This document shows, in pieces, positions 13,127 through 64,000 of a DNA stretch of 64,000 nucleotides. The DNA lies in assembly GCA_963971425.1 (NCBI GenBank), contig OZ020520.1, forward strand, positions 11,779,807 through 11,843,806. The letters run 5' to 3'. Below the pieces are notes generated by a model. That model made no database searches, was not told the origin of the DNA, and saw only the letters and a program-made list of their open reading frames with translations. The translations under genes were made by a program, and so were the position numbers. This DNA is from Bryoerythrophyllum caledonicum (Eukaryota; Streptophyta; Bryopsida; Pottiales; Pottiaceae). Numbering within the stretch: the stretch's first letter is position 1; each line of letters begins with the position of its first letter.

Positions 13127-13154
13127 AACACCGTATTCGTTATATTGGGAGATT
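13127..13154 (+). repeat. Left terminal inverted repeat of element G
   Basis: Twenty-eight bases starting AACACCGTATTCGTTATAT match the inverse of 32932-32959 with two mismatches (positions 7 and 25). The MITE ends at 20477 and 20714 are close relatives. Confidence 0.88.
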
Positions 13155-13188
13155 TAGTGACTCCCAAATTAACACATGTAGATAATAA

Positions 13189-14136
13189 GAGCTAAAGTGC
13201 ACATCTAAACTCTACAATATGGAGGGATATGAGTTTCCATTAAATTGGGAGGTAATGTTTTCTACAAAAACCCGTAGAAAAATAAGTACTACGGATAACA
13301 TTACATTACGAATCTAACTATAATATTGAAAAGAAGAACACATTAGTTGACACTTCTTTTATACCACATGTGTTCATTGAATATGAATAGCTAAATATTC
13401 ACACTCGATCCTACTAACCCGGATTAATACCATGCTCCAATTTAGCTAAAAGTGAGCTAAATGACGGACAAATATCCACTTGTAAGAGAATTAGCTTAAC
13501 TCATTTTGATGAGCCCTTTTTGATTTAAAAGAATTTCAATTCTCCTTCTGGAATTCACATTGGCCAAAAAAATATATAACGAGTTTCAAATGATGGTGCT
13601 CAGAAGTGGGAAAAAAATTGCACACACTACCTCTTTTCGAACTAAAGTGTCCCCATCACTTAGAGGTGCAATGAACTCAAAAAGGAAACTCCACACACTT
13701 TAGCTCCACTTGACCTAAGGTGCGCACCATTACTAAGTACACTGAACTAAAAAGAATGGAGAGCTAAAGTGTCAATAAGAAGATTTGCTCACACTTTAGC
13801 TCCACTAGAGCTAAAGTGCGACCCAACATTTACTTTCTATCATTCACCATAAAGGCAATTACTGGTATTATTGGTTTCAAGACTAGAAGCAATTTACCAC
13901 ATTGATATTATAAAAAGAAAATAAAACATACTGCAAATTATCACCGATACACAAAAAGAATGGAGAGAATATTTCATAGCAATCATTGGCATCACATATT
14001 ATAGTCATACAGAGTGTAAATTAATGAAATACAAATATCTATAATCCCAACACCAATGGATCTAACCATACTACATGAAGTATTACGCATCAGAATCTAA
14101 AATCTAGGAAAAGGAAACTCCATTTATCTAAGTCTA
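13189..14136. other. Non-coding left arm of G with palindrome copies
   Basis: No gene is seen between the left TIR and the transposase stop. Copies or half copies of the element palindrome occur at 13189-13201 (GAGCTAAAGTGCA), about 13690-13716, 13748-13760 and 13789-13823 (CACTTTAGCTCCACTAGAGC continuing TAAAGTG). The rest is AT-rich. Confidence 0.7.
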
Positions 14137-16968
14137 TTACAATTCGGACCTGGCAAGTGCTTCCAAAGAAGCCTTGATAATTGCTACTTGTCCCTTCGGA
14201 ATTTTTGTAGTTGAATCTTGCACATGACCTCCATCCCTCTTTGAAGACCTAGGTTTCCATGATGTCAAGATTGAATCGGTACTCTCCCACGTTATGGCTA
14301 TCCCCTTTTCAATTGTCCAACGAAGGTTGCAATCTGTGTCCCAATCTTTATAGAACTTCATAACATCCCGATCGCGCGATATAGGGCGGAAGAATTGGAT
14401 ACGCACGGTGTTTGGCATATCCGGGTTAGAATTAGGATCTGAAACTGCTTGAGCAATCCAAAATGGGCGCTCGTCCCCATCACAAGGACGCAATGCAACA
14501 AAATAGCCAGCAAAAAGATCACGACCAACTCTAAAAGAAGGAGGTGGACGATCGCGCCTTTGGCCAACAAAATGCTCATCTTCACGGTACTCCTCACGAA
14601 CCTCACCCTCCGCTGAGAACTCATCTTCAATGGCATGGGCAATTCGCGTCGTCGGCCAAAAGCCGTCTACCAATGATATCGGCGTATCCATTGGAATAAT
14701 CAGAGCAGCTCTAACATCACGCCAATAATACGAAAGTGGCTCAAAACGCGATCGGGCTTCAACAGACTCCCGAGATGATTGCTCCCAGTGATCGATGAAT
14801 CCTGAAAGTCCCTTCACCACCTCATGGAGATGCCGCATCATAGAAGGCTTCAATGCATCAGGTTCTCCGCGAGGCCATAAAGATCTTCCTTCACAATCCT
14901 CCTTCCACAATTTGATGCCACTACCTTCTCCTCCCTTAGGAAGCCAATCCTCATCATGACAAAGGATTTTATACTTCATTACCGGACAACCACTTGAATC
15001 CACATAAAACTTGAACTGATGAGCCTTTGTATGACCCTCCAAAGCTTCATCACCGTCCGCAATCATACCCCCAATGAACTTCTTAAAGTCAGGAACCTCT
15101 TGGATGAGATGCGGGATTGTGGGAACACTCTCATTTTTCATAAACGACCTCATGAGCAAAGGAATGGTTGGAAAACTCTCCTTCCTCAGTGTCATACTCC
15201 AACGTCCAAATAATGCATCTATATCATCATGTGTATGCCCAACTAGCATAAAATTAACATACACCTCGCGGAAGATGCGTTTTGCAACAAGGAGAGACCA
15301 AAAACAGAAAACAAATCTATTTTTGTTATCACCAACTGCATTGTCCATTTGTACATTCAATATTGGTGGCAAAGGCCTCCCTGGAACTAGGATATCTGGA
15401 ATCGGCCCTAATGGATCCAAACACATCTCCGCACCCCGTAATACCGCCGCATACAATGGATGAGAACTAGATTCTGGAAAGAGTTGCCGGGACGATGACT
15501 TCGGAGGCGCCTCCAGGTCACGCAATAGTTTTGCGAACGACCCGACCGTGTAATTGGCATCATGGGAGTATAAATCAAGGCCGTAATGGGCGTAACGCTG
15601 GTCCACATGACCATGGGCAAGCATACCTGTGATTGCAAGAGGCAACTTCATAAGCCCATCTAGGTGCTTTGTTTTATGTGAAAAAACCGGGGAGGCGGTC
15701 TTTGAGTGATCCATCTTATCATGCATGATGGTAAGAACCTCCTGAGGCGATGACTTTGATCGAAATCGGTTCAGGTAGTACAAGTCCCGATGTGAGAAAG
15801 CAGAATCAATGTGAACCTGCATCTTCTTTTGCCATAGCAGTGATGCTTGTGTTCCAGGTTGAGTAAGCTTCTTCTGATCCTGGTATTTGTCACAAGTAGA
15901 ACAACGGGCAAAGTTGTCTCCACCTTTCTTGGCATAGTACTCAGGGAAGCTCACACGCCGAATCTTACTCAAGCTTGAGGTTGAGATTGGCGGCAATCCG
16001 CAATCAGCGAGATGATCATCAAGAAGCGGTATCTGATCCTTCCACTTAAAACTTGCAGGGAGGACCTTTGCCACAGCCTTCTCCCCAGATGGGAGAACAC
16101 GAGACTTGTGAGGCATGTGGTCCGCATGTCTATCGAGAATGGCTCCAAGAGCGGCAGTAGCCACAACCGTATGACCTCTAGGCTTACGCAAACCGGTATT
16201 CCCGTGGTGTTGAGCGGCATGACCAGCGGCAGCGTCCTTCGCATTCCGATAGAAAGTACTCGAACTTACACCCATGATTTTCATCCAGGCATGGGCACAA
16301 ACGTCCACACCCTCTAGGGTCACAACCTTCCTACCCGCAGCGTCTCTATGAAACTGCCTGTGAACGTCGAGTTTGATATGATTTCTGAACTGCACGATGG
16401 TCTCACTGGTCAAGCGCGTCCGAAGGACTCTTATTTTATCTCTAGGGTAGTGTTGAACACAGTTTTGACTGCAACAACTATTGCTCGCAACAACGTTAAT
16501 GGAAAGAGGGGTCATGAGAAATTCAGCATTCCTGGACATTGTTGGACGTGTATTCCTTGAGGAATTGTCGTACGAACGGGAGCTCCCACCTAGAGGTCTG
16601 TTACGCTCAACCAACCAGACATTGTAAATGTCCCGAAGGCAATGATGGAAGAGACTCACACCGTTTAAGAAGACTTGTTGAATAGGCCAGGTCTTAAACG
16701 AGTACCTCCACTCATCAGGAGCTTCGTCTAAAACAAAAGTACTGGACACCTGTACTACAACATTCGAATCCCCAAGAGGACCAGAGGAACCTAGAAGTGC
16801 ACTGGACCGGACATTGCGAACCAACCCCTCCGCAACGCGAACACCCGAACCATTGTGAAGCGAAACAGTCAGCCCGACCCAGAGACGGCGAGGAATAACA
16901 TCAAACTCAGGCAGGTCTGGATTCACGGGAGCGTCAACATGAACATCGTCGCCCTCCGAAGACGACAT
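14137..16968 (-). CDS. Putative DUF7869 (Sola-like) transposase of element G, 943 aa
   Basis: This is the likely catalytic transposase of the giant element, encoded in one open exon. The ATG at 16968 (MSSSEGDD) is chosen because the 80 codons upstream look like untranslated AT-rich DNA. Visible features: VCAHAWMKIMGVSSSTFYR (about residues 223-241), a helix-turn-helix-like block typical of the family; FARCSTCDKYQ (353-363), a paired-cysteine knuckle; MHDKMDHSK (415-423), a candidate first acidic motif; QMDNAVGDNKN (540-550), the hallmark DN-x(3)-xNKN motif; and FMLVGHTHDDIDALFGRW (573-590), the hallmark GHTH-x(2)-D motif. These match the DUF7869 proteins found in transposons of algae, oomycetes and plants, with an RNase-H-like fold expected. 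It points away from the cargo genes and shares a 7.5-kb spacer with them. The frame is undamaged, suggesting recent activity. The exact DDE residues are inferred. Confidence 0.82.
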   Translation of the reverse strand: MSSSEGDDVHVDAPVNPDLPEFDVIPRRLWVGLTVSLHNGSGVRVAEGLVRNVRSSALLGSSGPLGDSNVVVQVSSTFVLDEAPDEWRYSFKTWPIQQVFLNGVSLFHHCLRDIYNVWLVERNRPLGGSSRSYDNSSRNTRPTMSRNAEFLMTPLSINVVASNSCCSQNCVQHYPRDKIRVLRTRLTSETIVQFRNHIKLDVHRQFHRDAAGRKVVTLEGVDVCAHAWMKIMGVSSSTFYRNAKDAAAGHAAQHHGNTGLRKPRGHTVVATAALGAILDRHADHMPHKSRVLPSGEKAVAKVLPASFKWKDQIPLLDDHLADCGLPPISTSSLSKIRRVSFPEYYAKKGGDNFARCSTCDKYQDQKKLTQPGTQASLLWQKKMQVHIDSAFSHRDLYYLNRFRSKSSPQEVLTIMHDKMDHSKTASPVFSHKTKHLDGLMKLPLAITGMLAHGHVDQRYAHYGLDLYSHDANYTVGSFAKLLRDLEAPPKSSSRQLFPESSSHPLYAAVLRGAEMCLDPLGPIPDILVPGRPLPPILNVQMDNAVGDNKNRFVFCFWSLLVAKRIFREVYVNFMLVGHTHDDIDALFGRWSMTLRKESFPTIPLLMRSFMKNESVPTIPHLIQEVPDFKKFIGGMIADGDEALEGHTKAHQFKFYVDSSGCPVMKYKILCHDEDWLPKGGEGSGIKLWKEDCEGRSLWPRGEPDALKPSMMRHLHEVVKGLSGFIDHWEQSSRESVEARSRFEPLSYYWRDVRAALIIPMDTPISLVDGFWPTTRIAHAIEDEFSAEGEVREEYREDEHFVGQRRDRPPPSFRVGRDLFAGYFVALRPCDGDERPFWIAQAVSDPNSNPDMPNTVRIQFFRPISRDRDVMKFYKDWDTDCNLRWTIEKGIAITWESTDSILTSWKPRSSKRDGGHVQDSTTKIPKGQVAIIKASLEALARSEL

Positions 16969-17147
16969 CCTGCATTCCAATGAGATACATAATAAAAAAC
17001 CCTGACAAATAAAAATGGGTAACCCCTTGAAGGAATAGACATTTATGAAGCAGCATAGGAGGAGGATAATTGATCTCGAATCAAGGTAAGGTCTGGCGCT
17101 TGAAAAAAAAAAGGTATGATTCAAGTGAGCTGACATGGCAGACCATG

Positions 17148-17705
17148 TAAATTTAGCTCGACTCGAGGTAAACTCATGCGGTATAAGATGACAAGTATAA
17201 AATTTCATGCAATTAGCTATAAGCCGAATATGAAATTATTTCACCCTTGACAAAGACAACTAAGCCCGACCCGACCAAAATTTATGACTACCAGACCGAT
17301 TGTTATTTTAACTCGAGTCGAGTTAAACAAAAATAGGACATCAGGTATGTCAGTTTAGCTCGAGTCGAGCTAAACTTTCCTTCAAAAGAAGGTAAGACAA
17401 TTTAGCTCGACTCGAGCTAAACTATCGATAATAATATTTATCGACAGTTTAGCTAAAGTCGAGCTAAATTGAACTAGGAAAGAAGGTATGACAGTTTAGC
17501 TCGACTCGAGCTAAAATGTCAATATAATAATGTAAGACAGTTTAGCTCGAGTCGAGCTAAACTGTCTTACCATCATTCCAAGGACACTTTAGCTCGACTC
17601 GAGCTAAACTGACGATAATAATACATATCGACAGTTTAGCTCGAGTCGAGCTAAACTGTCCTTGGAAAGATGGTAAGACAGTTTAGCTCGACTCGAGCTA
17701 AACTG
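17148..17705. repeat. Cluster of about ten palindromes upstream of the G transposase
   Basis: Palindromes of the form TTTAGCTCGA-C-TCGAGCTAAA or its inverse-centre version (centre G) occur near 17150, 17300, 17360, 17400, 17440, 17488, 17533, 17583, 17628 and 17678, spaced about 40-50 bp. Spacer DNA between them also tends to pair (GACAG...CTGTC flanks at 17533, 17628 and 17678). They sit 0.2-0.75 kb upstream of the transposase ATG, so they could be operator-like sites or subterminal binding sites. Confidence 0.9.
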
Positions 17706-18322
17706 TCCTTCCGTGATTTTCGGCGTCTTTTTAGGGATTCATATGGTAAAACTCTTCAGCATATGAATCTGACTCTCTGTGTACTACAACCCAAATCTTC
17801 CCGTTAGTCGTCACGAAACTCGTAGTGATGCTTAAAAATCACAGTAGCAACTGGAACCACCGCAAATAACCCTACACACTGTCACATCCTAATTGCTAGA
17901 GACTGTGCACAGAGAATGCAAGAAGTACACATTGTGTACCTTATGAAGAAGACAACTGGTGCGTTGTTGCCTCGCGCAAGCGCCCTGCTCAACCGTGCGT
18001 AACCTGTAGATGTTACCCTCCTCAACCTCCGACAGTTCTTCTCCCTCCAAGCCTCTCCACAACAACCTTGCACAGCAACCAAAGTGAGAAAGGAAAGAAA
18101 TGAAGAAAGTTTTCGAGGATCGGCGAGGTCACTCACGGACACACGACCGTTTCAGAATTGGCGGGAGGAAACTTCAGAATTGGCGGGGGGGCTTTTCCAC
18201 AACCCCTAAAAAGGTGCAAATTCGAAATCTTAGCGGGAAACAGAATCAACTATTTCTTGGCTGACTAAAATAAGGAAGAGTACATACCTCGAATATACTC
18301 GCACATGCGAGTTATATACAAG

Positions 18323-18450
18323 GTTTTAGGGTAACGCTCAGGGTTTGGGTTAGGGTTAGGTTTAGGGTTTAGGGTTAGGGTTAGGATTTTGGGGTTTAGG
18401 GTTTAGGGTTTGGTATTTAAGTTCAGGTTTTAGGGTTCAGGGTTTAAGGT
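18323..18450 (+). repeat. Degenerate interstitial TTTAGGG repeats
   Basis: A run of about 130 bp is built from TTTAGGG, GTTAGGG and GTTTAGGG units, the plant telomere motif in imperfect form. It lies in the non-coding middle of element G, far from any chromosome end. It marks the genome as plant-like; a role is not evident. Confidence 0.8.
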
Positions 18451-20472
18451 CCTTGGTTTAGGTGTTATCTTCTGATGTCATTTCATTTCAATATAATAAT
18501 ACTTTGAACATTCAAGATATTGACAATTCAACTAAGGTATAGGGAAATGTCGAGAAGATATTGAGATGATTAGAAATAATTTTGTATTACAATCCAAATA
18601 GGACTTATCTATTATGTTGAAATCAAAGACCTTAACAAACAAGTAGCATTTTAAAAAAAAACATATTTTATGTGCACGTGTATTTTTAGCAAAAATTTAT
18701 GTATTCAAACATGCTTTGGACATCATTTCTTTGGGGTTTTAAAAATGTGCATCATGTTACTATTTTGTCATCAATCTAGAATGTGCATTCTTTGGCAAGA
18801 ATCCCAAGTGTCTCCATGGTCTGGATTTGGAATTGAAATTGGTTACTAATATTTTGAATTAAAATATCTTATATTTGAGTTCGCATTGCATTATCATGAG
18901 TTTAGGGTGTGGCAGTCTAAGCATGACTTGAAAGATGGAAGAATTCTTGACCATACACAATTTATTTCATGTTTTGACGTGAAATTAAAGACTTTGTCAT
19001 TTGTAACACATAGAGAGTGGAACAATATTCAAAGATTTCAACAAGGAACGGAGAGACCTCCTCATGACAAAAAAAGGATAATCAAAATATAAAATATAAC
19101 TAATACAAAGTGTATCACTTAGTGCATCAAACATAATTTAATGTTCGTAATGTAAGTAATTTTGAAATTATTGATACAAGCAAAAATGGAATAATTAGTT
19201 TTTGAGCACGTTCTAGTGGTTGCAAATTATTTTTGACATTCTCAAAATTTTGTAGAAGGATGATAAAAGTCATGAGGCATAATTATATTTTCTCAATGAA
19301 CGTCTTCAATAAGAGTTATGCGAGCCAAAAGAGAAACTTCTCGATTGCCGGCACGTCGAGCAACCTGAAAAATATTTTGCTATGACTCAGTATGGAATGT
19401 GATATTTTGAATACATAGAAGTAATATTAGAACGAATGATATTGTGGATAAACATGTTATTCTTCTAGTGAAAAATAAGATTACATCCCAATTCATACAT
19501 TTTCACACATTGTCACATATTATTGATTTAGGGTACCAAGAATACTTAGACTTCATATCCACTAAAGACTAGGGGATCGTCATATTTTTTTTCTTTTTAA
19601 TATTACTATTGGAGATTTAGATCCACATATTTTGAAAACCCTTTTAAAATTCAAAAGGTTACGATTTCACTTGTGAAATACTTAACCATAAAGAGAAGTA
19701 CGGAGTTCAAAATGATTGTTTGTAGAAGTGGATATACACATTGCACATACATCAGCTCGATTTTTAGCAAAGGTGTTCACCATCACTTTGTGCAATGAAC
19801 CAAAAGGAGTGTGTGCACACACTTTAGCTCCAGTAGCGCTAACGTGTGCCTCATCACTGGGTGCAGTGAACTGAAAAGAAAATATGCACAGTTTAGCTCT
19901 AATAGCGCTAAATTGTGCACCATCACTAAATGGAGTAGATTAGAAAGCAAAAATGCACTATGTAGCTCCAGTATACAGAAGATGGCTTCTAGAGAAGTGG
20001 ACACTAATTAGGAATCCATACAGTAATTGTAAAATGAACAATAAGTGTAGTGTCAAAACTATACATCACCCAATGTCAACTACTACTTTAAATGTCAATC
20101 CTAGTAAATAGTGGAACATAAAGTTTTTTACTTGTGGACAATTAGTTTAGGAAACCATAATCATGGTTTGATTACATCTTGAGCATCATAGTAAGGAAGG
20201 GTTGAGTGCATGTAGAAAAGCAAGAATTTGCAAGAAAGAGCTTGGGAATAATCGGACGTAGGTATGGAGCAAACGAAAAATATCAAAAATTGGACAAAGT
20301 AGAATGTAAAATATGGAGGGAAAATGAAACAGCAAGTAGAAGATTGGAAATATAAGAACATTCTTCTGGAAACGAAAATGAGAAAAGAAAGGAATATTGG
20401 AAAAGGAAAAAACTTAAACATACAATAAATATAGAAATACAAGTAAAATACTCATTAGATATCCATCACATA
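18451..20472. other. AT-rich non-coding spacer of G
   Basis: There is no coding sequence with recognisable similarity. Weak palindrome relatives occur at about 19816-19848 (CACTTTAGCTCCAGTAGCGC followed by TAA) and 19888-19916 (TTTAGCTCTAATAGCGCTAAA), where the centre is GC rather than CGA. Confidence 0.5.
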
Positions 20473-20476
20473 TTAT

Positions 20477-20714
20477 AACACCATACTCATTTTATTGGGA
20501 GATTTCCAGGATTTTGAAAGTTATGAACGGTTTTTCCAATACATTTTTTTGGTGCACATTCAGCTCGACTCAAGCTGAATATGTACCCAGATTGTAGATA
20601 TTGGACAAATTGCATTGTGCAAATTTACTAAATATTTGCATATTTAGGTCATTCTCAAGCTTCAAATATTATTTTGGGAGGCTCCCAATCTCCCAATATA
20701 ATGAATATGGTGTT
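20477..20714. mobile_element. 238-bp MITE with element-G-type TIRs, TSD TTAT
   Basis: The left end AACACCATACTCATTTTAT continues TTGGGAGATT; the right end is its inverse with two mismatches in 28. TTAT flanks both sides (20473-20476 and 20715-20718). The interior contains CATTCAGCTCGACTCAAGC continuing TGAATATG, a relative of the element-G palindrome. It is therefore a non-autonomous derivative of the G family inserted into G itself. Confidence 0.82.
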
Positions 20715-21340
20715 TTATGCATTCAATGTGCATTACATATTCAGTAAATATTCATTAAATACTTATTGAATATTCAACTACACATTAATTTTACATTAGA
20801 AATTTATGCACTATTCATTATCTATTCAGTAACAGTGCATTAAATACTCTATAAATAATCATTAAATATACAAATATTAATTAAACTATCCTGAAATATA
20901 CTTTTAAAACTTCAAACATTCATTAAGTAAAATTTAAATATTCTTTAAATGTGCATAGAAGTTTTAGATATACAAATATACATGAAGTATCCTATAAAAA
21001 ATCATTACAAAGTCATTAGTTATTGGCTAATTATATGATTACACATTAAATATTCATTTGGATAATATTAAAAAATATTTAAAAAATGCAAGAGATGGGA
21101 ATGAGAATAGTTGTGGATAAGACGATAAGAAATTGAGGTTGAAGATGAGACGAAGAATAAATGCATGGCGTTCGGTAGGTATAACATATTGAGTTTATAC
21201 AATTTATCAAGTATCAAAATTGTGTGCTAGGGAAGAATTTTGATAGAGGGCTATTACAAAATGAACTGTAGTAGGTGAACAAATGAGGGATAATATTCAT
21301 GACAATGGTGGCTAAAACTAGTTGCCAACTTGTTGACTAA

Positions 21341-22108
21341 TCATACTACTAAAATCATATTCCACGCAGTGAACCACGTAGTCAACCGTGCGGTGAACTA
21401 CATAAACAGTGAAGTCAAACGCGCAGTTAATTGCGTAGTCAACCGTGCAGTGAACCATGTTACCTTTTTATTATTTATAGTTTGTATTATAAAAACGTCA
21501 TTATAATGGTTGGACATATGCGTTGCAAAGCAAGCGCCAATTGCTAGGAACAGTGCAGCCAACCACACAGTGAATCATGTTATCTTTTCTTTAATATAGT
21601 TTGTAATATAAAACCACGCAATGAAGTTGGAGTTGTGATCTTGGAGGTTGGCATACAAAGTTGGAGGTACAAAATTGCATATTCGAGTTGTGGAGATTGA
21701 AATTACAAGTTTTGAGGTGAGATTGCAAGTTTTGAGATTGTAATTGCAAATTGAGTTTGTGGGTGTATAAAATTGAGATTGTAATTGCAAGTTGAGTTTG
21801 TGGGTGTGTGAAATTTGCATTTGTGTGTTGCAATTTGTGCTTACCCAAAATAAATTTGAAACTCTTAATTACAAATTTGACGTTCATAACCTTTTTGAAA
21901 TTCCATGTTAAAATGCAAAAAAATCTGAAACGTAATTAATTTTTTTCTATTCTATTCTATTACATTATTAAAATTCATGCATAGGTTTCAAAGATATATT
22001 TTTATTTTATGTAGATTGTTGTTACCTTTCTTTTTTAATATTTTGTGATTTAAAAACTACATGAAAATGGTTGAACTAATGCGTTGCAACGCAAGCGCCA
22101 ATTGCTAG
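21341..22108 (+). mobile_element. Helitron-like non-autonomous element
   Basis: The 5' end reads A|TCATACTACTAAAATCAT, like the TC-plus-TACTA start of plant Helitrons. The 3' end is the hairpin GCGTTGCAACGC, twelve bases, then CTAG|T, matching the Helitron rule of a GC hairpin shortly before CTRR and insertion between A and T. A second similar 3' end (GCGTTGCAAAGC...CTAG) occurs internally at 21521-21547. No Rep/helicase gene is present. The 5' part has imperfect repeats of GCAGTGAACCACGTAGTCAA. Confidence 0.6.
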
Positions 22109-22124
22109 TAGTGTACTAGAAATA

Positions 22125-22511
22125 GAGAATCTCCACCGCGGCCGAGGGACCGGGATGCGAGAATAAACACGGTAAAGCCCACTCCGTGAGGCCTAGGCCG
22201 GTGTATCGGCCCACAGGAGTGGCGGCGCCGGTTCTTCTAAACAATAAATTTACAGAAAGTACAGGGGAGACTAAAATTCCCCGGGAGCATGTGTTCAATC
22301 ATGTAATTACACGAGGGAATTAAAAAAAATCAATAAAAACCCCAAAACAAATTAGCCTACTATGGCGTAAGTGTTGGGCACTGGCGTTCCCTCACAGTGG
22401 CCAATTCGGTGACGGTGCGGGGGGAAAAGGGTAAACCCCCCTCCCTTCATCTCAAACTTGGGCACCTTCCCGCTGGCGTGGAAAATTTCCCGTCAGGGGT
22501 GGAGATGCTCT
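22125..22511. mobile_element. GC-rich island, possible MITE
   Basis: This stretch is much more GC-rich than its surroundings and has inverted ends of the form AGAG(A/C)ATCTCCACC (22124-22136 and inverted at 22499-22511). No clear target duplication was found beyond TA, so it is only a candidate PIF/Harbinger-type MITE. Confidence 0.35.
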
Positions 22512-22569
22512 AACTACTGGATTTGTACCGTTAAAGTGAAAGCAAAATGAAGTGAAAAGTAAAGAAAAA

Positions 22570-22672
22570 ATCACACTTTAGCTCTATTAGAGCTAAAGTG
22601 TGCACCATCAGGAAATGTAGGAAACTAAAAAGAAAATATGCACACTTTAGCTCCAATAGAGCTAAAGTGTGC
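22570..22672. repeat. Two palindromes with CACACTTTAGCTC half-sites
   Basis: CACACTTTAGCTC-N5-GAGCTAAAGTGTG-type palindromes occur at about 22571-22602 and 22641-22673 (centres TATTA and CAATA). They are variants of the element-G palindrome in which the half-sites are kept but the CGANTCG centre is replaced. Confidence 0.85.
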
Positions 22673-23249
22673 ACCGACATTTATTTTATAATTAAACAAT
22701 TGCAAGATGTGGTCTTAACATACTTAATGTCAGTTCGATTCTCAAAGTATATAATATCAAACTCATAAATAATCAAAACGTGAATTCAAAGTAATAGAAT
22801 CTTAAAATCGTAGCTTTAAAACTCTCTTAAGTGTGCTTCACCTAATAATTGGTGTAGGAGGAACTTATATACATCGATGGTAATGAATGTACTCCTTCTG
22901 TAATGCAGAAATTGAAATCCAGTCAAGTGAAAGCCAGCTGATCCACTGAAAGCATGACAGAAAACTAAACACTATAATCCTATTTGTAACAGTAAAGACT
23001 ATAATCGTTCACTTCCGTCCAATCCAAGTTTGTGTATTATTGAGAAAATGCCAATTTAGAAGTTTTAATTGAGATCATACGAATGAAATTGGAAATAATC
23101 ACATTTCTTTTGCTATCTGTTCGTTGCCCCAGAATTTGCAAAATTGTAGTGATAATGGCCAAGAAAAATTGCGTAGGAAATTTACGAGTACAGAAATACA
23201 ACACGCGCGTAATATCTAGAACTTACATTAGAAAGGTTAAAATGGATTC

Positions 23250-24458
23250 TTGAAACTCCGGGTATCAATAATGAAGGTGAATAATTTGTGGTGCATCCAT
23301 CTAAAATATCCGAGGGTCTCACCCGAATATCACGAAGGGTATCCCGAGGGTATCTCGGGAGCACCACACGGCCACAGGGTTTCGACCCTCACGGCTTTAG
23401 GTGCCCCCGAAGGTACCCTAGAAACTCCTGGCGCTCTCATTTTCTCTTCCTTTCCGTTGCTGTGAGTTTTGTGTGTGTCCGTGTACGTTCTTGTTTTGTG
23501 AGGGTTGTGCGTTTATGCGTCGGTTCGTCGTGGTTTTGTGTGTGTTTGTCTAGGCGTTGTTGTTTTCTGAGGCGAGTTTACGGTTTGTGTTGGTTTCGTA
23601 ATGTTCAGGGTCTGTTAAGTTTGTGTATATTGTATTGCTGCGTTTAGGCTTTCGTGCGTTTAGGCTTTCGTGGACGTTAGGGTTTCCTGCAGATAGGGTT
23701 TGTAGGACGTGTGATTCTTAATTGTGTGAGTTCGTGTCCACTGCAGCGCTGGAGTTTAGGGCTGTTTGTGTGAGATTGTGAGGGTTCTGTGAGTTTCTGT
23801 GAGTTTGTGAGTTTGTGTGAGTTTCTAAGAGTTTCTGTGAGTGTGTGAGTTTCTAGGAGTTTCTGTGAGTGTGTGTGAATTTCTGCGAGTTTCTGCGAGC
23901 ACGTACAGTCTGAAACGGCGGTGCTCGGAGGATTGACGTGAAGAAGGAACAAGACTTGCAGCTTTCTCAGTCGGATTTCATAGTTTTAAAGGTAACTGCA
24001 CTCATTCAGTCTTGCATTTCTTTTGATATTTGTGTAGTTTTGCTTTAGATATGATGTATTGAAACAGTATGATAGCATTGCTTTTGATGTATGTGTGAGA
24101 AGGTAGATGAGATTGTGTATTCAATGTGGTGGTTTGAATGTGGTAGTTTGAATGTGGTGGTTTGTGGTGGTTTGTGGTTTTTTGTCGTGGTTTGTGCTAG
24201 TTTAAATGTGCTGGTTTGTGCTAGTTTAGATGTGCACATTGAATTCAATGTCGTGGTTTCAATTGCTAAATTCAATGTGCTGAATTCAATGTGTTAATTT
24301 CAATGTGCTCATTTGAAAGTGCTGATTTCATTGTGAATGATTACAATGTGTTGGTTTCCATGTGCTACTTTGTTTGATTTTGTGTGTGTGGGTTTGTTAT
24401 CGTTGTTGCAGGACTTCTGGTTCCACCAGAAATTGTCTGGGATTCAGGTTCATAATCA
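23250..24458 (+). promoter_or_regulatory. Upstream region of the G ParB-methyltransferase gene with G/T-rich minisatellite
   Basis: This is a strand-biased, G- and T-rich region preceding the first coding exon. At 23765-23900 it is made of GTGAGTTTCTGTGAGTTTGT-like tandem units, and at 24115-24330 of GTGGTTTG and AATGTGCT(G)ATTT-like units. An acceptor-like TTGCAG at 24409-24414 just before the ATG-bearing exon suggests a 5' UTR intron. Long open frames here are side effects of the repeat bias. Confidence 0.5.
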
Positions 24459-27400
24459 ATGGCTGAAAGGTAAAATCCATGCTTCTCATCCAGGAGCCCT
24501 AAACCCTACGCCTTCAATATCATATAACAAAAGACGGATCTGCACAAACTGCAATAAATAAGCTCTTCAATGAACACAGTTTAGCTCGAGTCGAGCTAAA
24601 CTGGGACATGGATATTGCACTACTGTCCACACTTTAGCTCGACTCGGGCTAAAGTGGGCTTCCACTGTGCAAAATGGGTCACACTTTAGCTCGACTCGAG
24701 CTAAAGTGGGGCCACCACTGAGCAATATGGCCCACACTTTAGCTCGAGTCGAGCCAAAGTGAGATCCCCCGTGTGCTCTTGTGGCTGCATTAACCTCGAC
24801 TCGAGATAAAGTGCGCTCTCCAGTGCTCTTTAGGCTTTATTTAAACTCGACTCGAGGTAAACTATGGCCAATAAAGCACACTGGAGAGGGCACTTTAGCT
24901 CGACTCGAGCTAAAGTGTGATCAATAGTGCACAATGGAGGCCCTCTAAAGCTTGAGTCGAACAGAAATGTTCGACTTTATACGTCTATGGTTGCGCCAAG
25001 GCCGGTTACAGGAACAGTAATCATAATGACTTCTTTCAAACTCTCGGTGTGAAAAATGTCATGGCCTTCCAGTAAAGCCAACACTCTTTACCTCGAATCG
25101 AGCTAAAGTGTATGACAATAAACTTAAACAACTCAAACCCAACAACACTCGGACTTTAAACACTCCAAAGGTATAGTAAACCAATGATATCGACGACCCA
25201 ACTCATGTCCACTTCTCGTCAAATTCTCACATGTAAGCAAGAGCTTCAGTCACGCTTCAACCACTTGAGGACCTCAAAGAGTGAGGTTCGTGAGTGATTT
25301 AAGGGTGAACTTAAGCTCTTTCGCAGTTCTGAGAGTTAAACGATAAGTAGCCATGATCTGAAAATAGATGTATAGGAAATTCGTTTGAATGAATATTGTA
25401 AGTGTCAGAACTGTTCAGCTATGCAATCCATGCATGAGCACTTTAGCTCGAGTCGAGCTAAAGATGAAGCTAAAACTTGAATACAACATTGATACATTGG
25501 TGTAATTGCAGTCTCCTAACTCAACTCACGTCTACTTTTCGTTCACCTCTCATAAATCGTGCAAGAGCTTCAGTCCCGCTCCAACCACTTGAGAACCTCA
25601 AAGAGTGAGGTTCGTGAGTGATTTGAGTGTGACCTGAAGCTCTTTCACAGTTCTGAGAGTTGAACGAGAAGCAGGCATGAGTTGATTGTAAGCGTCTTAG
25701 CGAACGGTCAAATTGACTAGATTTTCTTGCAGAGCATTATTTACATACTTGTATTCAGTTACACATTAGCTCGAGTCGAGCTAATGTGTGACCTCGCCAT
25801 CCTAATCGGATGATTATTAAAACAATCTAATATTTGTGCTCCGTTTCGTGTTTGTACAGATCTGAGAGGGACAGGATGGTGTCTCAACTGCAGCACTTCT
25901 TCCAGCCAAAGCCTGTCGACATTGACGATGACGATGGAGACGACAACAACCACTTAGATTGCTGGGAGCTCAAGGATCCTTCGATGACACTGAAGTGGAC
26001 GCTGCTATGGGCCCCCTACACTGAGAATCTAGTGTTTGGTCAGACCTTCGCTGGTGATATCCATGAACCCCAGCACATCGACTTCAAGACCAAAATCATT
26101 GATGTAGTCCACGAAGATAACGATATAGTGAAGTTGTCGTGTGAGACAACCACTGAGTCTGTCGATCCTTATATGTTCACTATTGTAGTGAACAATACTT
26201 CGTCTCCCTTCTGTATCTTCGATTTAGTCAGTTCTCTTAGGGGGTCACAGTTTGATGACATAGTGGCTCAGGTCGACCAAGAAATCTCCCAAAAGAAATG
26301 GGAGACTAGTAGTGGTCAGCCGCTGAAAGCAAAGGCTGTCGCGAACAAACTCCGCGTCATTCTTTCCAGAATGAGTACTTTTGCCGCTCTTGAGAAGGCG
26401 AAATTAATCGCGTCTAGGCGCCCAATAGAACTTTCGGTAGTTTCTGGTGCCGTAACAGGTAGCCAGAATATAAGTCAAGCATCGGTACCGGTAAGAACTC
26501 CAGGTGCAAGAGCAAGTCGAAGCACCCTGCGCAACACGCTGTCAGCGTCTCCCGTCAAGAAGCGCTCAGCTGCCAAGAAGCCGGAGACTTCTTCCAGGAA
26601 GAAGACGAAACTCGTTTCAGAGGAAGAGTTGGCCAATTCGATGGCCTCTGCACTGTTGGAACTCCCTTTGGCGCTCGGATTCGGAGAGGTAACAGACTAC
26701 ACTAACGTCCAACAGATATATCAGAAATTCTGGACGGAGTGTCAGAGCTGTTTTTTTCAAGGAGACAGAGAGATGAAGATCGAGCTTGATGTGATGAGGC
26801 TGCATAATGCACCGCCGGAGTGGACGATCCGTGCATTCAAACCTCGCGGTATGGAGGAGTTGAAGCATTACTACCTCGAAATGCCGGACAAGACTCAGAA
26901 GCAGACTCTCTGCGTCATGCCCAAGCTCGATCATATGCCAACGAAGGTTGAGGAGCTCAGCGACTGCGACTTCTATATCATCAACGGCCAGTACAACGTT
27001 GCTGCATCAAAGTCGATGATAAACGGTACCGTGCCGGAGGTTATGAGAAGGCACTTCCGGACATGGCAGTGTTACATTGTCTGGACGGAGGACCCTGAGA
27101 AGCTGAGGAAGATTTCCGCGTATTATAATCGCGTAAATCACTTGGTCCAATTCAAGCCGACGTGGGCAACAAATATCCTTGGCTCTCGCGCGTTGTGGAT
27201 CCAAGCTGGAAGACCGATGCCGAAGCACTCCGCCGCAGGCATTCACGGGTCCCATAGATCAGGTCGGAGAACGGCAGTGGAGATTGCCAATGACAAGAAG
27301 TTTGAGGTAATTAATCTTAACCACAGTCATGCACTTTAGCTCGACTCGAGGTAACTTCTGTGCTTGTCCTTCTTAGTATAGTTCTGTATACAGATTCGAG

Positions 27401-30400
27401 CACTTAGAGTGTACACTCTCCGGTTCCAAGTTAGCTCGACTCGAGTTAACCTGCATTTTTGGTTCCTGCTGGTTTGGTTTTTTTCCCCTCAGTGGTTGTA
27501 CGCTAAATCAACACTGCCAATGTTCTGCGCAGCCATTTCTAAACGCGGTTCGTGAGCGCTTCGCAATGATTGACGTCGCCAAAAGCCAGGCAGCGCTCAA
27601 GAAAGCCGGAAAGGCGAAGGAGCTCTCGATTACGAACGAGGTGAAGATTATCACCTCGTCCGATGAGACCTTCAAGCTCTGGTCGGATGTCATCTCTTCG
27701 GCGGCACAAGGCGACCTCATCAACGTGGATTCAACAACGTCGCCCTTGTCGAAGTTTAAGGACGCCAAGTCCTAGGTGCCTGGGAAAGATGGGGTATTGA
27801 CGCGCGAGTTCTTCAAATTTTTCGGCAATATGACCGAGGCTGATCACGCAACGCTGTGTAAGCATATTCTTAATCGATCAAGGCCATCGCGAAAACTACC
27901 TTATCCAAAGGTGGTTGTAAAGCAGCCGCAATCAGTGCTGGAGGATTGCTACAGCGCCCGGGACTGGGTCGATCGAAGGAAGAGGAAGGAGGTCGCTCGG
28001 ATGGAGCTTCAGTTGATCAGGCCGGAGCTCGCCTTCTTCAACAGCACTAGGGCGTACAGTCGTTCCAACTGGCGAAAGTTCAAGAAGGACTACAACGTCA
28101 GCAAGGCCTCAAAGCGTGCCCTCTTGGATTGGGGTCCACCGGATTTGTACTACGCAAACTCAAGGCAGACGCAGTTTCGCAACTGCAAATGTGAAGATCT
28201 CTCTCCGTATGCGAAAGAGTTCTTCAGAGTCTTCCTCGATGTGCGGGCGCGGTTCGTTGCACCTGTGGGGGCCTTGCACTTTCGTCCATACAAGGCGGCA
28301 ACCAACTCGCTCGGTGGATGGTCCTCGGATGCGTGGCGTAACTTGGGCATCATCGACTTCCGTAATATCCCTGGGTTCGTAGGGAAGGCGACGTCATCAT
28401 TGGAGAAGCCCTTCTTCGACGAGTTCATGACAATGTTCGCATCGAAAGGGCAGCCTTCTCTCACTGGTCTTCGAGCGTGGCTCTTCATTTGCGGCGACGA
28501 GCAGTCACACCTTCAAGTGACAGCGTTTGCTGAGGGCCCGTCGTTGTGCCATGCGTACGACGTCCTGCAGTCGAAGTATCTTCCCTCCGACAACGAGCGT
28601 TTGGGGGGATTTGCGCCGAAGACCAACAACGCTCTCGACCCGGTTCGCCTCCTCTTTCTCTTCAAGAAAGAGCTTACGCAGATCCCGGCCGTGAAGAAGA
28701 TCTATGCAGCTCCGGAGCATGTGTTGCACACCAAGCTACGCAAGTACAACGAGCTGGCGTACTCCATGAACATGAACGAGCTGAGAATGGAGTTCTTCAT
28801 CAAGGTTCTGGAGCTGTTCTGCAAGAAAGGGGATTCTACTGTCCAGCTCTTTTGCGGGACGAAATTACTGACTGCGAGTGTGGTGAGTATCCTTGCAGTT
28901 TAGCTCAACTCGAGCTAAACTGTTGATCCCTCTCTCTGACTGTGAATGTATTGTTTCAGAGAGGTCGTCTCTCATGCTTTGTAGCGTGGCACTTTAGCTC
29001 GAGTCGAGGTAAAGTGCCGGCTTATACTTATATGGTTTTTTAGTATTCCTCAATCGCGTCATATTCTTCCATGTTTTAATGGCTGCGTTTTCATATCAGT
29101 GTTCTTCTGTGCTCACTTTAGCTCGAATCGATCTAAAGTGTAACTTGTTTAATCCATTGGTGTGCAGATGTTGGATCTGGAGGCATTCTGCATATCCCAC
29201 GACACCGATGAGCAGGACCTGGACGACGCCCAGGATGTAGCGTTGACGTTGGATCGGGCCGATTTTGTTATTGGTTCATATCACATCGGCGCGGAGATCT
29301 TCCCCGAGCTTGGAGAGGCTGTTGCCAAGGGGAAGGGGAAAGTGATTATCGATCTCGTCGATGAGGAGGAGGAGGAGGATGTGGTCCCGAGCCCCATTGG
29401 TGTGTGCCCGAGCACCAGTACGGTTACACCTGATGCCGATTCACATGATGACTTCGATACCAACACTCCAGCGGAGCTTCATAGTGGCTCTCAGTCTGAA
29501 GCGGGAGAGACAATGGGTACCTTGCGGCAGCGGCTCGATTTCGTGGAGTTCGAATCGCTTGATATCTCCGAGAGGCCTCATTCAGCTCCGACATTGGGTG
29601 GGTCATCCGCTCGCCCCGCAGCCAAGAAGAGGAAAGTTGCCAGCGCGACCGGCCGCTCACCGTTGGCAACTACGAGCAGTGCTCAGGATGACATCAGGTT
29701 TATCGCCCTCGAGAAGAAGCTCGAAGAGGAGGCCACCCGGATGAGGTTGATGGAGCAGCGGCTGGCGGAGCGTGACGAGGAGCTCAGGGATATGCAGCGG
29801 AGGCGTGACGAAGAGATGAAGAGGGACCAGGACCAGAGGCATAACGACATGATGCTGATGATGCAGAGATTCATGACGGCTACTATGCCTCCTGTCGCCA
29901 CGACACAAACCGTAGTGAATTCTACGATCCCTCAGCCTCCAATCTCAGGTGACGATGAGACTAGGAGTCTGCCTCGCGGTTCGCTTATGCTGTCTCCGGC
30001 GGGTTCCTCCCCCGTCTCCACGGGAGCTCAATCGCTGCCTCATCCCCCATCCCCGCCGACCCGCCCCTCTTCCTCCCCGAAGTCGCCCGCTCGGGATGAT
30101 TCTGTCGTTGATGTCCCCAGCTCATCGTCAGGTTAGTGTAACGTAGTTGCGAATGTATAGAGCCAGAACATTTTGTAAATGTCCAATTTTGTACTCCAGT
30201 ATTTTTGTTAATATTACAGTGCTCAGTGATCACTTTAGCTCGACTCGAGCTAAACTGCTTGACATGTGACGACTCTGACATTGTATCAGTGTCCAATGTG
30301 CGCATGAGCTGATGGGTTGAAGTTGTTGAATTTTTTCAGATCTTAGTTTTGGTGATGACGCGATTGCTCAACCAGTCGTAGATGAGGTCGTCCAAACTGC

Positions 30401-30623
30401 AGTCCCGGTCGTAGAGGATGTCGTCCAATCTTCGGCCGTGCTCGTAGACGAGATCAATCGTGATTCTCCTGTCCAGGAGCCCGCTCTTCTTGTCCTGGAA
30501 CCGTGCCCCCAAATGGTTCTGGAGCAGTCGAGGGCCCTTGACACCGTCCAAGTTTCATTGGAATCAATGGGGGTCCGAAACGAATTGCTTCAAGACGATG
30601 AAGTTCTCGAGGTGCTCTTCTAA
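24459..30623 (+). CDS. Element G ParB-like/DNA methyltransferase-like protein, spliced, one in-frame TAG
   Basis: Proposed exons are 24459-24469 (MAE), 25860-27306, 27533-28882, 29168-30131 and 30340-30623. All junctions are GT-AG and in phase, giving about 1351 codons. Residues about 370-420 carry DFYIINGQYNVAASK followed by TWQCYIVWTEDPEKLRKISA and YYNRVNH, resembling the ParB/sulfiredoxin fold (G-x-HR-x-AA and distal Asn). The end of exon 3 and start of exon 4 read VQLFCGTKLLTASV then a strand ending SHDTDE, like SAM-binding motif I of beta-class amino-methyltransferases. The earlier segment around RAWLFICGDEQSHLQ aligns with the strand after the PPW motif in the M2 homologue, but a clean PPY/W is missing. 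Basic nuclear signals occur (PVKKRSAAKKP, AAKKRKV), then a coiled coil (about 1115-1170) and a Pro/Ser-rich tail. TAG at 27773-27775 interrupts one exon and may be a CAG-to-TAG decay. DNA binding or methylation is inferred. Confidence 0.72.
24575..25110. repeat. Palindrome array inside intron 1 of the G ParB gene
   Basis: About nine palindromes or near-palindromes lie at roughly 24578, 24631, 24681, 24735, 24787, 24838, 24892, 24952 and 25080. Most are C(A/T)CTTTAGCTCGA-N-TCGAGCTAAAG types. More single copies in the same intron lie at 25440-25463 and 25758-25786. The intron is 24470-25859. Confidence 0.9.
27331..27450. repeat. Two palindromes in intron 2 of the G ParB gene
   Basis: GCACTTTAGCTCGACTCGAG followed by GTAAC (27331-27355) and TTAGCTCGACTCGAGTTAA (27431-27449) lie inside the intron 27307-27532. 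Confidence 0.88.
28896..29141. repeat. Three palindromes in intron 3 of the G ParB gene
   Basis: Copies at 28896-28922 (CAGTTTAGCTCAACTCGAGC...), 28989-29017 (GCACTTTAGCTCGAGTCGAG...) and 29114-29141 (CACTTTAGCTCGAATCGATC...) lie in the intron 28883-29167. They do not enter the exons. Confidence 0.88.
30231..30256. repeat. Palindrome in intron 4 of the G ParB gene
   Basis: One copy, CACTTTAGCTCGACTCGAGC continuing TAAAC, lies in the intron 30132-30339. With introns 1-3 this means each of the four introns carries at least one copy. Confidence 0.88.
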
Positions 30624-30753
30624 CACTATCCACTCTCTTCGCTTCCCCATGTTGCTTCCCCCCGTTTGCTCTCTTCGTTCTACATTATGTTGACTTGTCG
30701 TTGTTAATGAATCTTTAGTAATATTGTTCGTTCTCCTGGCGTTTCCGAACCAG

Positions 30754-31548
30754 GTCTGCGAGGCATCAATAAGTGGTGCCAGTAATTTAGAAGAAATACC
30801 TAGAGTCTATTCAGATTCCGAGGGCAGATGGTTGAATGTTGTGCTGGACCTAAATGGGATTCTATGCACTTGTAAGCCATCGTGGCAGGCCAGGGGGTCC
30901 AGGGGCTCTATCCCGTCCATTCACTCGGCCTCGCTGCCGGCCGAAGTAGGCCCTAAGCTTGTTCGGGTGCGCCCTGGTTGTGCTGAATTCCTTACGAAGT
31001 TGTCTAAGACTGCCACCATCACGATCTGGAGTTCAATGATGGAATCTACAACACGTGAGATATGTCAATATCTTTTTCAGCATAGTTCTGCGTATCCTCT
31101 CAGGATCTTTGGTCAGGAGAGTTGCGATAGGGTTCCCGAGCGTAGAGTCGGTAACAGAACAATCTACATGAAGGAATTTGGCACTCAGAAGGACATCTTC
31201 TTGAAGACGTTATCGAACCATCTCTTTAATAGGTTGGGCCGTGAGTATACTCCGTCAAATACACTTGTCATTGACGATAGCCCGATTAAGCATGTCCTTA
31301 ATTTGCCGGAGAACGTCCTTCATCTTCCGTCATGGTCGCACAACCACGATGGCGCGAGACATGATTCTGTACTGCTGGAGGAATTGCTACCATATCTCTC
31401 TGACCTTCATCAATTTTCGGGTGGCCTAGCGCAGTATCGTGCTGAACATCCCTCGGGTCGGGAGATGTTCTATAATGATCAGAAGACGTGTGGTCAGGCT
31501 GCGAGTATTTGTAACGCAATTCAAGCCTATCAGAATCTCCGTTCCTAA
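30754..31548 (+). CDS. FCP1/NIF-type HAD phosphatase-like exon, possibly fused to the ParB gene
   Basis: An open stretch of about 264 codons has the FCP1-homology fold: VVLDLNGILC (motif I), TITIWSSM (motif II) and TLVIDDSPIKH (motif III), followed by WSHNHDGARHDSVLLEEL and a C-terminal helix. These domains remove phosphate from Ser/Thr, classically in the RNA polymerase II tail. Motif I has DLNG in place of D-x-D-x-T: the first Asp (nucleophile) is kept but the second (general acid) is Asn, so catalysis is doubtful. No ATG precedes the domain in this frame. Instead, an acceptor (CCAG at 30750-30753) would join in phase to a donor at 30612 (GAG|GTGCTC) of the preceding gene, removing its TAA. 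The domain may therefore be the C-terminal part of one ParB-methyltransferase-phosphatase protein. The weak donor makes this uncertain. Confidence 0.7.
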   Translation, partial: VCEASISGASNLEEIPRVYSDSEGRWLNVVLDLNGILCTCKPSWQARGSRGSIPSIHSASLPAEVGPKLVRVRPGCAEFLTKLSKTATITIWSSMMESTTREICQYLFQHSSAYPLRIFGQESCDRVPERRVGNRTIYMKEFGTQKDIFLKTLSNHLFNRLGREYTPSNTLVIDDSPIKHVLNLPENVLHLPSWSHNHDGARHDSVLLEELLPYLSDLHQFSGGLAQYRAEHPSGREMFYNDQKTCGQAASICNAIQAYQNLRS

Positions 31549-31577
31549 TGTGGTTGGAAGCGCTTAGATCCTTAATA

Positions 31578-31606
31578 CACTTTAGGTCGAATGGAGCTAA
31601 AGTGTT
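31578..31606. repeat. Element-G palindrome after the FCP1-like exon
   Basis: ACACTTTAGGTCGAATGGAG followed by CTAAAGTGT is a palindrome with a diverged centre, 30 bp after the stop codon at 31548. Confidence 0.8.
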
Positions 31607-31814
31607 TCGTTTGACTGCAGCTCCATTTTGTAAATTTTGTTGGGTCGTGTTTTGTATATATTTTTTGATAATACAAATGGTGATGTTTCTCCACCGAATT
31701 TATTGTGCGGATTGGATACCTACTGCTGGTGAAATGTCGTCCTTTTTTTAATGTTTGGAATTTTATCTATTGTTCTGAGGTATGTGAGTGTCACTTTTGT
31801 TGAAATTTCTACAG

Positions 31815-32669
31815 GGCTGTGATTGTCGGGCGTCCGTGGATTCCTTGTTGGGTCCACATGAGTTCGCCCTTTCCCTTCGGAGTAAAGGGCTTTTGTTGCA
31901 CTCTGCTGCAACCGCGCAATCAACCATGGATTATTCGACCATGGCAGTGGACGACGGAGTTGTTGAAAGCCCTATTGCGCAGGAGCCAATTCATGAAAGG
32001 AACAATTCACCTTCGCCGCAGTGGCCTCGTTTAGTTCCGGGGTCTCCGCGCCTAAACTTGGATAATTGTATTCCGGCAAAGCGTATTCTCTATGACGGTT
32101 TAAGGGATGCCACTCACCAACACTCGCTCACGGTGCGTGTTATGCTGACCTCCAAGTTATTGCACTATTGAGTCGTTCTTGCCTAGAGAGTCTTGGTTTG
32201 TTGTTGACGTACCTTGCACTCTTGTAGTTTTGCTTCATTTGAGCTTGTTTTTGTGCATTGGATATTAAATGTGCTCTGTGAATTTCACCTTCTGCATTTT
32301 AGCTCCATTTGAGCTAAAGTGCACTAGGATGGATCTTGATGATACAATTTTTTTGTGTTGTCGTGTAGGTGTATTCGACCTAAAGTGTATTTGTTTGGAT
32401 TGTTTGTGGCGCCTATTGTGCAGGAACCATCTGGTAAATGTCTTCGCCCCCGTATTCTCTCAAGAAATGCTGCTGGAATCACATGCTCTCCTTCCGCTCC
32501 CACCCGCCGTCACTCGCTGCCCAAATCAAACACGGACGAGGTGTGAAGGCGGGGTTTGCAGCGTCTTCTTGAGAGTCCATTAATGCAAGAGATTGGCGCA
32601 ACATGGACTCGGCAACGTCAGAGGGCTTTTCTGAAGACGCGTATAGAGGCTTATGGAGGGACTCCCTAG
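31815..32669 (+). CDS. Two-exon unknown reading frame at the right end of G
   Basis: An exon opens after CTACAG at 31814 and runs to a good donor (ACG|GTGCGT) at 32131. A second exon starts after GTGCAG at 32423 and joins in phase (SLT to EPSGKCLRPRIL). TGA at 32544-32546 interrupts it, after which the same frame continues to TAG near 32669. The protein is Ser/Pro-rich with no domain I recognise. It may be the 3' end of the FCP1-like gene or a separate small gene. The intron contains a palindrome copy at 32294-32322 (CATTTTAGCTCCATTTGAGC...). Confidence 0.4.
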
Positions 32670-32931
32670 AATGTTTGATTAGTAATAGGGCGATTGTGAT
32701 TTGCGTCGAGGTAAATGAGTGTTGTGTGTGACTTTTTTCATGGAGTTTTGAATAAAGTTTGGATTAATAGTATATGCTTTCTTTATCGTTACCACTTTTT
32801 TGGACGATAAGCTATTTTGGTCCATCCATGGTAAAAAATACAGTATTCTTGATACATTGTTTTTATGCTTTGCACTACAAATGTCTATATTTATTGATAC
32901 TTCAACAACCATATTTCTCCATAGTCATGGA

Positions 32932-32959
32932 AATTTCCCAATATAACGAATATGGTGTT
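32932..32959 (-). repeat. Right terminal inverted repeat of element G
   Basis: This ends ...CCCAATATAACGAATATGG TGTT and is the inverse of 13127-13154 with two mismatches. It is followed directly by the ATAA duplication. Confidence 0.88.
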
Positions 32960-37200: not shown

Positions 37201-37332
37201 CTCGGTACTTGCTTGAATCATGTATGTTCGTTCATTCAAACTGTTGTATAAGTTCTTTGTACTGGATTTAAGAATAGCTGTAGTTTATGCACATGAATGT
37301 AACTGAATAAAAGTTTCCATGGATGTGTGTAG

Positions 37333-63999: not shown

Positions 64000-64000
64000 T

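Follow-up and report, generated by a model that had tools for sequence, protein, structure and literature searches.

Introduction

DNA transposons with an extra regulatory or DNA-modification-type gene are a known kind, and the VANDAL elements of Arabidopsis, which are Mutator-like elements (MULEs), belong to it. Fusions of ParB with methyltransferases occur in phages and bacteria. Among other DNA transposons, the target duplication of Sola is 4 bp, and in Spm/En the protein TNPA pairs the transposon ends by coating sites on the DNA. The motif of VANC21 has nine bases, YAGTATTAY, and forms tandem repeats in introns and upstream regions, including the region upstream of another element gene (PMC5735166). 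Protein binding and induced loss of methylation have both been shown for VANC (PMC5735166; PMC10398659). Fungal DNA transposons carry conserved TET/JBP genes proposed to counter silencing, which makes them the nearest published case of DNA-modification cargo found (PMC12730594), and Sola1 is listed for Physcomitrella (Table 1, PMC9033089). The present work concerns 64 kb of contig OZ020520.1 of the moss Bryoerythrophyllum caledonicum (this whole stretch is called the window), in which a complete DNA transposon carries two conserved genes, one of them (gene A) encoding a fusion protein with ParB-like, methyltransferase-fold and FCP1-like parts, as well as dozens of copies of a short palindrome.

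The transposon and its copies

Positions 13127-32959 hold one complete transposon, 19,833 bp long, since copies share exact ends, terminal repeats and 4-bp target duplications (Table 1). The genome searched was eukaryotic and comprised 437 Mb in 894 contigs. Two copies are 97.5-98.8% identical to the window (~15.8-33 kb compared), and the alignment ends exactly at 32959. The ends were examined in the window copy and ten further near copies, of which three gave only the right end, being short pieces. Both ends with a matching 4-bp duplication were read in eight near copies, the window included (ATAA, TTGG, TCCC, CTAA, TTGT, TAAA, CAAA and AAAA). The same ends, with the duplication CTAT, delimit a diverged copy (~86% identity in exon 2 of gene A), and the 4-bp duplication is present in 9/9 copies with both ends readable (eight near, one diverged). 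Terminal inverted repeats and a target duplication of fixed length, as found here, characterize cut-and-paste DNA transposons. The element is such a transposon of mosses, and its two conserved genes, gene A and an open reading frame (ORF) with the DUF7869 domain, are present in the near and in the diverged subfamily. A preliminary description of positions 24459-31548 had considered gene A to be transposon cargo; the exact ends, the target duplications and the many copies bear this out, the described stretch being only the right part of the element.

Exon 2 of gene A has at least 86 scored copies in the genome among 1857 candidates, with 86-99% identity to the window, and the FCP1 exon has at least 145. 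An FCP1 exon follows downstream on the same strand for 65 of the 86 listed exon-2 copies (farther off than usual for two of these 65), and 21 have no scored FCP1 partner.

The DUF7869 ORF is open in the window copy and in the diverged copy. Its motifs QMDNAVGDNKNR and GHTHDDID resemble, by eye, a DDE core. Judging from these aspartate motifs and from its position, this ORF is likely the transposase of the element.

The region of ~7 kb between the two genes (17700-24400) is partly AT-rich and has no long ORFs; its alignable stretches are 75-91% identical to the diverged copy. Telomere-like repeats of the TTTAGGG type lie within the transposon at 18326-18450.

Table 1. Coordinates of the transposon, its genes and its palindromes in the window
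Feature	Position	Strand	Remarks
Complete DNA transposon	13127..32959	.	19,833 bp; flanked by 4-bp target duplication ATAA
Left terminal inverted repeat AACACCGTATTCGTTATATTGGGAGATTT	13127..13155	+	29 nt; 93% identity with reverse complement of right end
Right terminal inverted repeat	32931..32959	-	reverse complement found again at 13127
Palindromes towards left end	13699, 13795
DUF7869 ORF, likely DDE-type transposase	14137..16968	-	943 aa; PF25273, E 2.8e-42
Palindrome array	17152..17702	.	~47-bp spacing; upstream of DUF7869 start
Gene A exon 1, start codon	24459..24469	+	donor 24470
Palindrome array	24580..24914	.	~52-bp spacing; within the first intron of gene A
Gene A exon 2, N-terminal part and ParB-like part	25860..27306	+	INGQYNV in window copy
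Palindrome	27335..27355	.	intron 2; relatives share this location behind exons 2 and 3
Gene A exon 3, helical middle part and methyltransferase-fold domain	27533..28882	+	in-frame TAG 27773-27775 in window copy
Gene A exon 4	29168..30131	+	probable last methyltransferase strand, acidic stretch, PAAKKRKV basic stretch (nuclear signal), likely coiled coil; strand, signal and coil assigned by eye
Gene A exon 5	30340..30611	+
Gene A intron 5	30612..30753	+	142 nt, phase 0; joins exon 5 to FCP1 exon; acceptor AG 30752-30753
Gene A exon 6, FCP1/NIF domain (DLNG variant) and stop	30754..31548	+	PF03031, E 2e-18
Further palindromes	27430, 28899, 28993, 29117, 30234, 31581, 32298

Structure and conservation of gene A

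The start (24459), the first donor (24470), the start of exon 2 (25860), the borders of intron 5 (30612 and 30753) and the motifs IINGQYNVAASK and FCGTKLLTAS, all given in the preliminary description, were found in the sequence as it had placed them. The window copy of gene A is not intact because of an in-frame TAG and the loss of 18 nt of exon 3 relative to the other aligned copies. In the diverged copy L058, the six exons read as a single open frame of 1613 aa. Among diverged copies, the splice signals are conserved in all undisturbed regions. Disruptions affect L054 from exon 3 onward and L057 inside exon 6, and L055 lacks exon 1; the exon 2 value of row n002 of the copy alignment was disregarded, one piece being misoriented. 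Five of the six diverged copies retain the GT and AG of intron 5; in L054, the remaining one, this region is disrupted. Between the subfamilies, undisturbed copies show 67-76% identity in introns 2, 3 and 5 and 86-91% in exons 2, 3 and 6. Intron 5 by itself is 75% identical, and the FCP1 exon reaches ~90% in those four diverged copies in which it is undisturbed.

Intron 4 (30132-30339) shows ~90% identity between the subfamilies, far above introns 2, 3 and 5; an additional functional element may lie in it.

Ratios of non-synonymous to synonymous substitution rates (dN/dS) were obtained for the window against four of the six diverged copies (L058, L053, L055 and L057). In exon 2 they are 0.15-0.16 for the N-terminal part and 0.09-0.10 for the ParB-like part; exon 3 gives 0.09-0.17 and exon 4 gives 0.32-0.37. 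The values for exon 5 are 0.44-0.49, apart from 0.85 in L053, which is due to a frameshift, and the FCP1 exon gives 0.17-0.18 in three of the four comparisons and 0.49 in L057 because of its disruption. The three folded parts of gene A are under purifying selection.

The first homologue search returned 23 proteins, 16 from Ceratodon purpureus, five from Physcomitrium patens and two from other sources, with 34-50% identity to the query; PF03031 is listed for 11 of them. Their names, partial as displayed, are those of hypothetical, uncharacterized or FCP1-domain proteins, and one homologue cluster represents 139 sequences. The hypothetical and FCP1-homology-domain proteins of the two mosses belong to the same protein family as gene A, which suggests that many moss proteins annotated with an FCP1 domain are transposon genes. 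Locus tags with UG or VG occur on 12 of the 16 Ceratodon homologues (P0001-P0016); taken to denote U and V sex chromosomes, they suggest that the family has piled up there. A profile search returned 103 proteins, and of the 121 relatives collected, 39 were of exon-3 type and 60 of exon-2 type by the thresholds of this analysis. The viral contigs searched contained no relatives, and phage records gave no match to the single exon-2 relative used as query (P0118).

The cargo was also considered as a passing host gene; this was rejected, as both subfamilies contain it, selection acts on it and related proteins exist in other mosses. Chance ORFs were rejected as well.

Three parts of the fusion protein

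In exon 2, INGQHSV or a near variant is almost invariant among the relatives; after it come a strand with VW at its end and then LRKISAYYNRVNH. The variant of the window copy is INGQYNV, INGQHSV being that of most relatives. This layout resembles that of ParB and DGQHR-type proteins. A GxxR-type motif is typical of the ParB/sulfiredoxin superfamily; at this place most relatives have GQHS, and P0006 has GQHR. The ParB-like family phrog_1033 was matched weakly by 2/34 relatives (best E 0.042), the Pfam scan of the relatives gave no ParB family, and hhalign against P1 ParB was negative. For the ParB part proposed in the preliminary description, support is weak: the motif is near-invariant, but profile matches are few and the structure model that included this part was not confident; the part is termed ParB-like, not ParB.

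Structure prediction, suggested as a check in the same description, gave a methyltransferase fold for exon 3. For the full-length Physcomitrium protein P0017, modelled with 23 sequences, the predicted local distance difference test (pLDDT) score was 37.8 and the model unusable. Exon 3 was modelled from 38 of the 39 exon-3 relatives, P0048 being excluded (alignment A6). The predicted fold is a Rossmann methyltransferase of the beta-class type, with the catalytic strand before the strand that binds S-adenosylmethionine (SAM). Active beta-class enzymes, CcrM for example, are among the closest folds, and Foldseek against viral models gave three matches at E <= 0.001, one named N4-cytosine methyltransferase and two unnamed. 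None of the 38 relatives of A6 has motif IV, [DNS]PP[YFW], at the expected position, where DFR stands in 35 and DFH, DFQ and ALY in one each; the pattern was found in 2/121 relatives, but within exon 2. Motif I, FxGxG, is replaced by [FY]xGxK in 24/24 covering rows, the second glycine being lysine. The beta-class fold first proposed from the sequence is supported; a working enzyme, with motif IV missing in 38/38, is not. Sequence profiles gave little: PF01555 (N6_N4_Mtase) appeared in 1/38 A6 relatives with a weak E of 0.029, the PHROGs scan of A6 yielded no methyltransferase, and Pfam scans (A2, A6, A7), the NCBIfam scan (A3) and the PHROGs scans returned weak rows only. Searches of PDB sequences with profiles A2, A3, A6 and A7 gave no significant match; with A6, a stretch around motif I of arginine methyltransferases appeared at E 0.24.

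The FCP1/NIF domain of exon 6 scores 67 bits in Pfam against a cut-off of 21.8. The nucleophile motif of FCP1/NIF phosphatases is DxDx(T/V); the window and L058 have DLNG instead. Among the 17 relatives with FCP1 motifs, DLNG is present in ten and DxD in none, the segment being missing from the annotation in seven, and the later motifs WSSM and DDS are retained in most. This part may bind rather than dephosphorylate. No PDB sequence matched the FCP1 exon at 0.001.

Palindromes of the element

The palindrome TTTAGCTCGA[CG]TCGAGCTAAA has 35 sites in the window at <=4 mismatches, all within the element, and the mean in 20 base-shuffled versions of the element is 0. In half-site form, 40/42 window sites lie inside the element, the other 44 kb holding two weak ones, and of the 40 a single site, which has 4 mismatches, begins in an exon. 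In the diverged copy there are 38 sites, and its 5.6 kb of flanks are free of them. The palindromes are thus nearly confined to the noncoding DNA of the element, where each intron longer than 150 nt contains them, as does the 5' region of the transposase gene (Table 1).

Positions -1 and -5 vary yet remain complementary, well above shuffles. Position -1 is paired in 24/40 sites of the window element (14.3 expected) and 29/38 of the diverged copy (14.2 expected); position -5 is paired in 24/40 (11.6 expected) and 24/38 (11.3 expected), respectively. The palindrome can also be recognized in the intron tails of relatives. Thirty-one relatives continue for 12 aa or more beyond exon 2 or 3, and the tails of 25 read the palindrome in one of its two open frames with <=2 mismatches, 14 of them with none; approximately one would be expected from shuffled tails. 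These 25 have 37-67% identity in the exon. Since 25/31 relatives read it, the palindrome and its place probably predate the divergence of these elements.

Proposed function and alternative explanations

The product of gene A is probably a large nuclear regulatory fusion of ParB-like, methyltransferase-fold, coiled-coil and FCP1-like parts. This protein, or its dimer, would bind the palindromes spread over the element and, once bound, would keep the element expressed and unsilenced or ready it for transposition. The main role of the methyltransferase fold would be that of a module binding DNA or SAM, and the FCP1 part would contact a phosphorylated protein, for example the tail of RNA polymerase II. 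Binding, anti-silencing and any enzymatic activity of the fusion protein are to be taken as putative. As a whole, a two-gene transposon with a fusion protein acting on its own palindromes is the best explanation, held tentatively and with somewhat less than even confidence. An extended version is unlikely: in it, a ParB-like clamp, a remodelled methyltransferase fold and a polymerase-tail-binding FCP1 part would spread from dozens of palindromes and hold the whole element active, possibly with DNA chemistry that does not use DPPY.

Several points weigh against the fusion protein as reader of the palindromes. At positions -2 to -4, pairing exceeds that of shuffles slightly or not at all. Because the pairs at -1 and -5 are variable but complementary, pairing itself may be selected, as a hairpin or cruciform, or may be maintained by template switching, the site not being read base by base. 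The sites of one array are not independent, and the 25 palindrome-reading relatives are not 25 independent cases, as several tails are near-identical. The DUF7869 transposase could be the palindrome binder. The likeness to VANC is one of motif placement and logic.

A role of the fusion protein as a direct transposition accessory, coating the palindromes to pair the ends as TNPA does and not acting on silencing, is unlikely; palindromes near both ends (13699, 13795, 32298) besides the interior and the regular spacing of the arrays (~47 and ~52 bp) would suit it, whereas the majority of sites occupy the interior, within introns or close to 5' regions, and not the ends. The protein might instead be a working DNA amino-methyltransferase producing N6-methyladenine (6mA) or N4-methylcytosine (4mC), guided to the element by the ParB-like part, with the palindrome as target. 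The resemblance to active enzymes such as CcrM and the strong purifying selection on the domain favour such an activity, as does the centre of the palindrome, often GASTC, which falls within the CcrM site GANTC. However, DFR replaces the catalytic motif in 35/38 relatives with the motif there in 0/38, the second glycine of motif I is lysine in all 24 rows, and the palindromes at 13795 and 22577 have no central GANTC, so that an active methyltransferase is quite unlikely.

It is improbable that the palindromes are RNA hairpins near splice donors that regulate the splicing of gene A, with the protein binding RNA. They do shortly follow the donors of exons 2 and 3 in distant relatives, and their outer pairs covary, but they are also found ahead of the transposase gene, in the region separating the two genes and nearer the ends, in DNA not expected in the transcript of gene A. 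A further alternative bears on the fusion itself: the FCP1 region could be a separate downstream gene, the gene A protein stopping at 30621-30623, given that with intron 5 retained an in-frame stop is the fourth codon past 30611 and that the joined frames are read from DNA. This is very improbable in view of the conserved splice sites of intron 5, the single frame of L058 and the annotated Ceratodon and Physcomitrium proteins that unite both parts (PF03031 in 11/23). No ATG was found ahead of the FCP1 domain, in agreement with the preliminary description, whose phase-0 splice to this domain is supported by the same L058 frame and annotated relatives.

Other content of the window

Outside the element, a broken second gene on the minus strand (gene B, 47500-51653) has a ParB-like part (FFVWDGNHRLAAW) and a methyltransferase-like part, the last part matching the methyltransferase phrog_18293 at E 2e-4. 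No homologues of its protein were found at 0.001. Comparison of genes B and A by hhalign gave a probability of 1.5 and no detectable relation; the best stretch nonetheless pairs both ParB-like motifs. A third, more degraded gene on the plus strand (gene C, 37300-41160) shows, by eye, FFVWDGNHHHLAWM and an IPPW stretch, so that, with genes A and B, the 64 kb may hold three genes of this type. Another repeated family with several ORFs, whose members share the stretch HIxRLPKTSxRKCxALQA, has two copies at 10964-13191 (-) and 57359-60890 (+), with no Pfam match in the three ORFs scanned. Remnants resembling, by eye, a Tc1-type transposase (7956-9038, +) and Copia-type gag and pol (44138-46314 and 62984-64000, +) were also present.

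Comparison with known systems

The element resembles Sola in being a moss DNA transposon with a 4-bp target duplication, the two being compared by these traits only. With the phage and bacterial ParB-methyltransferase fusions, gene A shares the order of parts, the ParB-like part preceding a beta-class methyltransferase fold; it differs from them in the missing DPPY, the long middle part, the FCP1 tail and the eukaryotic introns. In an incomplete literature search, no paper describing this cargo or DUF7869 was found by title or abstract, one listed paper (PMC3671162) proving unrelated on inspection, and the architecture of gene A with its palindrome system was not found described. A prior Repbase entry for the element is possible, since the literature and sequence searches did not cover Repbase.

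Like the fungal transposons with TET/JBP genes, the moss element carries a gene of DNA-modification type. The fungal cargo is a dioxygenase found in many transposon lineages, whereas that of the moss is a methyltransferase-like fusion in the one family examined. Beside the fungal case, it is another kind of DNA-modification-type cargo of DNA transposons, in a land-plant lineage.

The VANC system of the Arabidopsis VANDALs is likewise a DNA transposon with an extra protein and a short motif arrayed in noncoding DNA, and the moss fusion system appears similar in logic to the VANC anti-silencing proteins. It differs in that the moss motif is a palindrome and the protein has ParB-like, methyltransferase-fold and FCP1 parts, with binding and anti-silencing, both established for VANC, only inferred here. 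Since one copy is intact, the palindrome is defined and mosses are tractable, the evasion of silencing by transposons can be tested directly.

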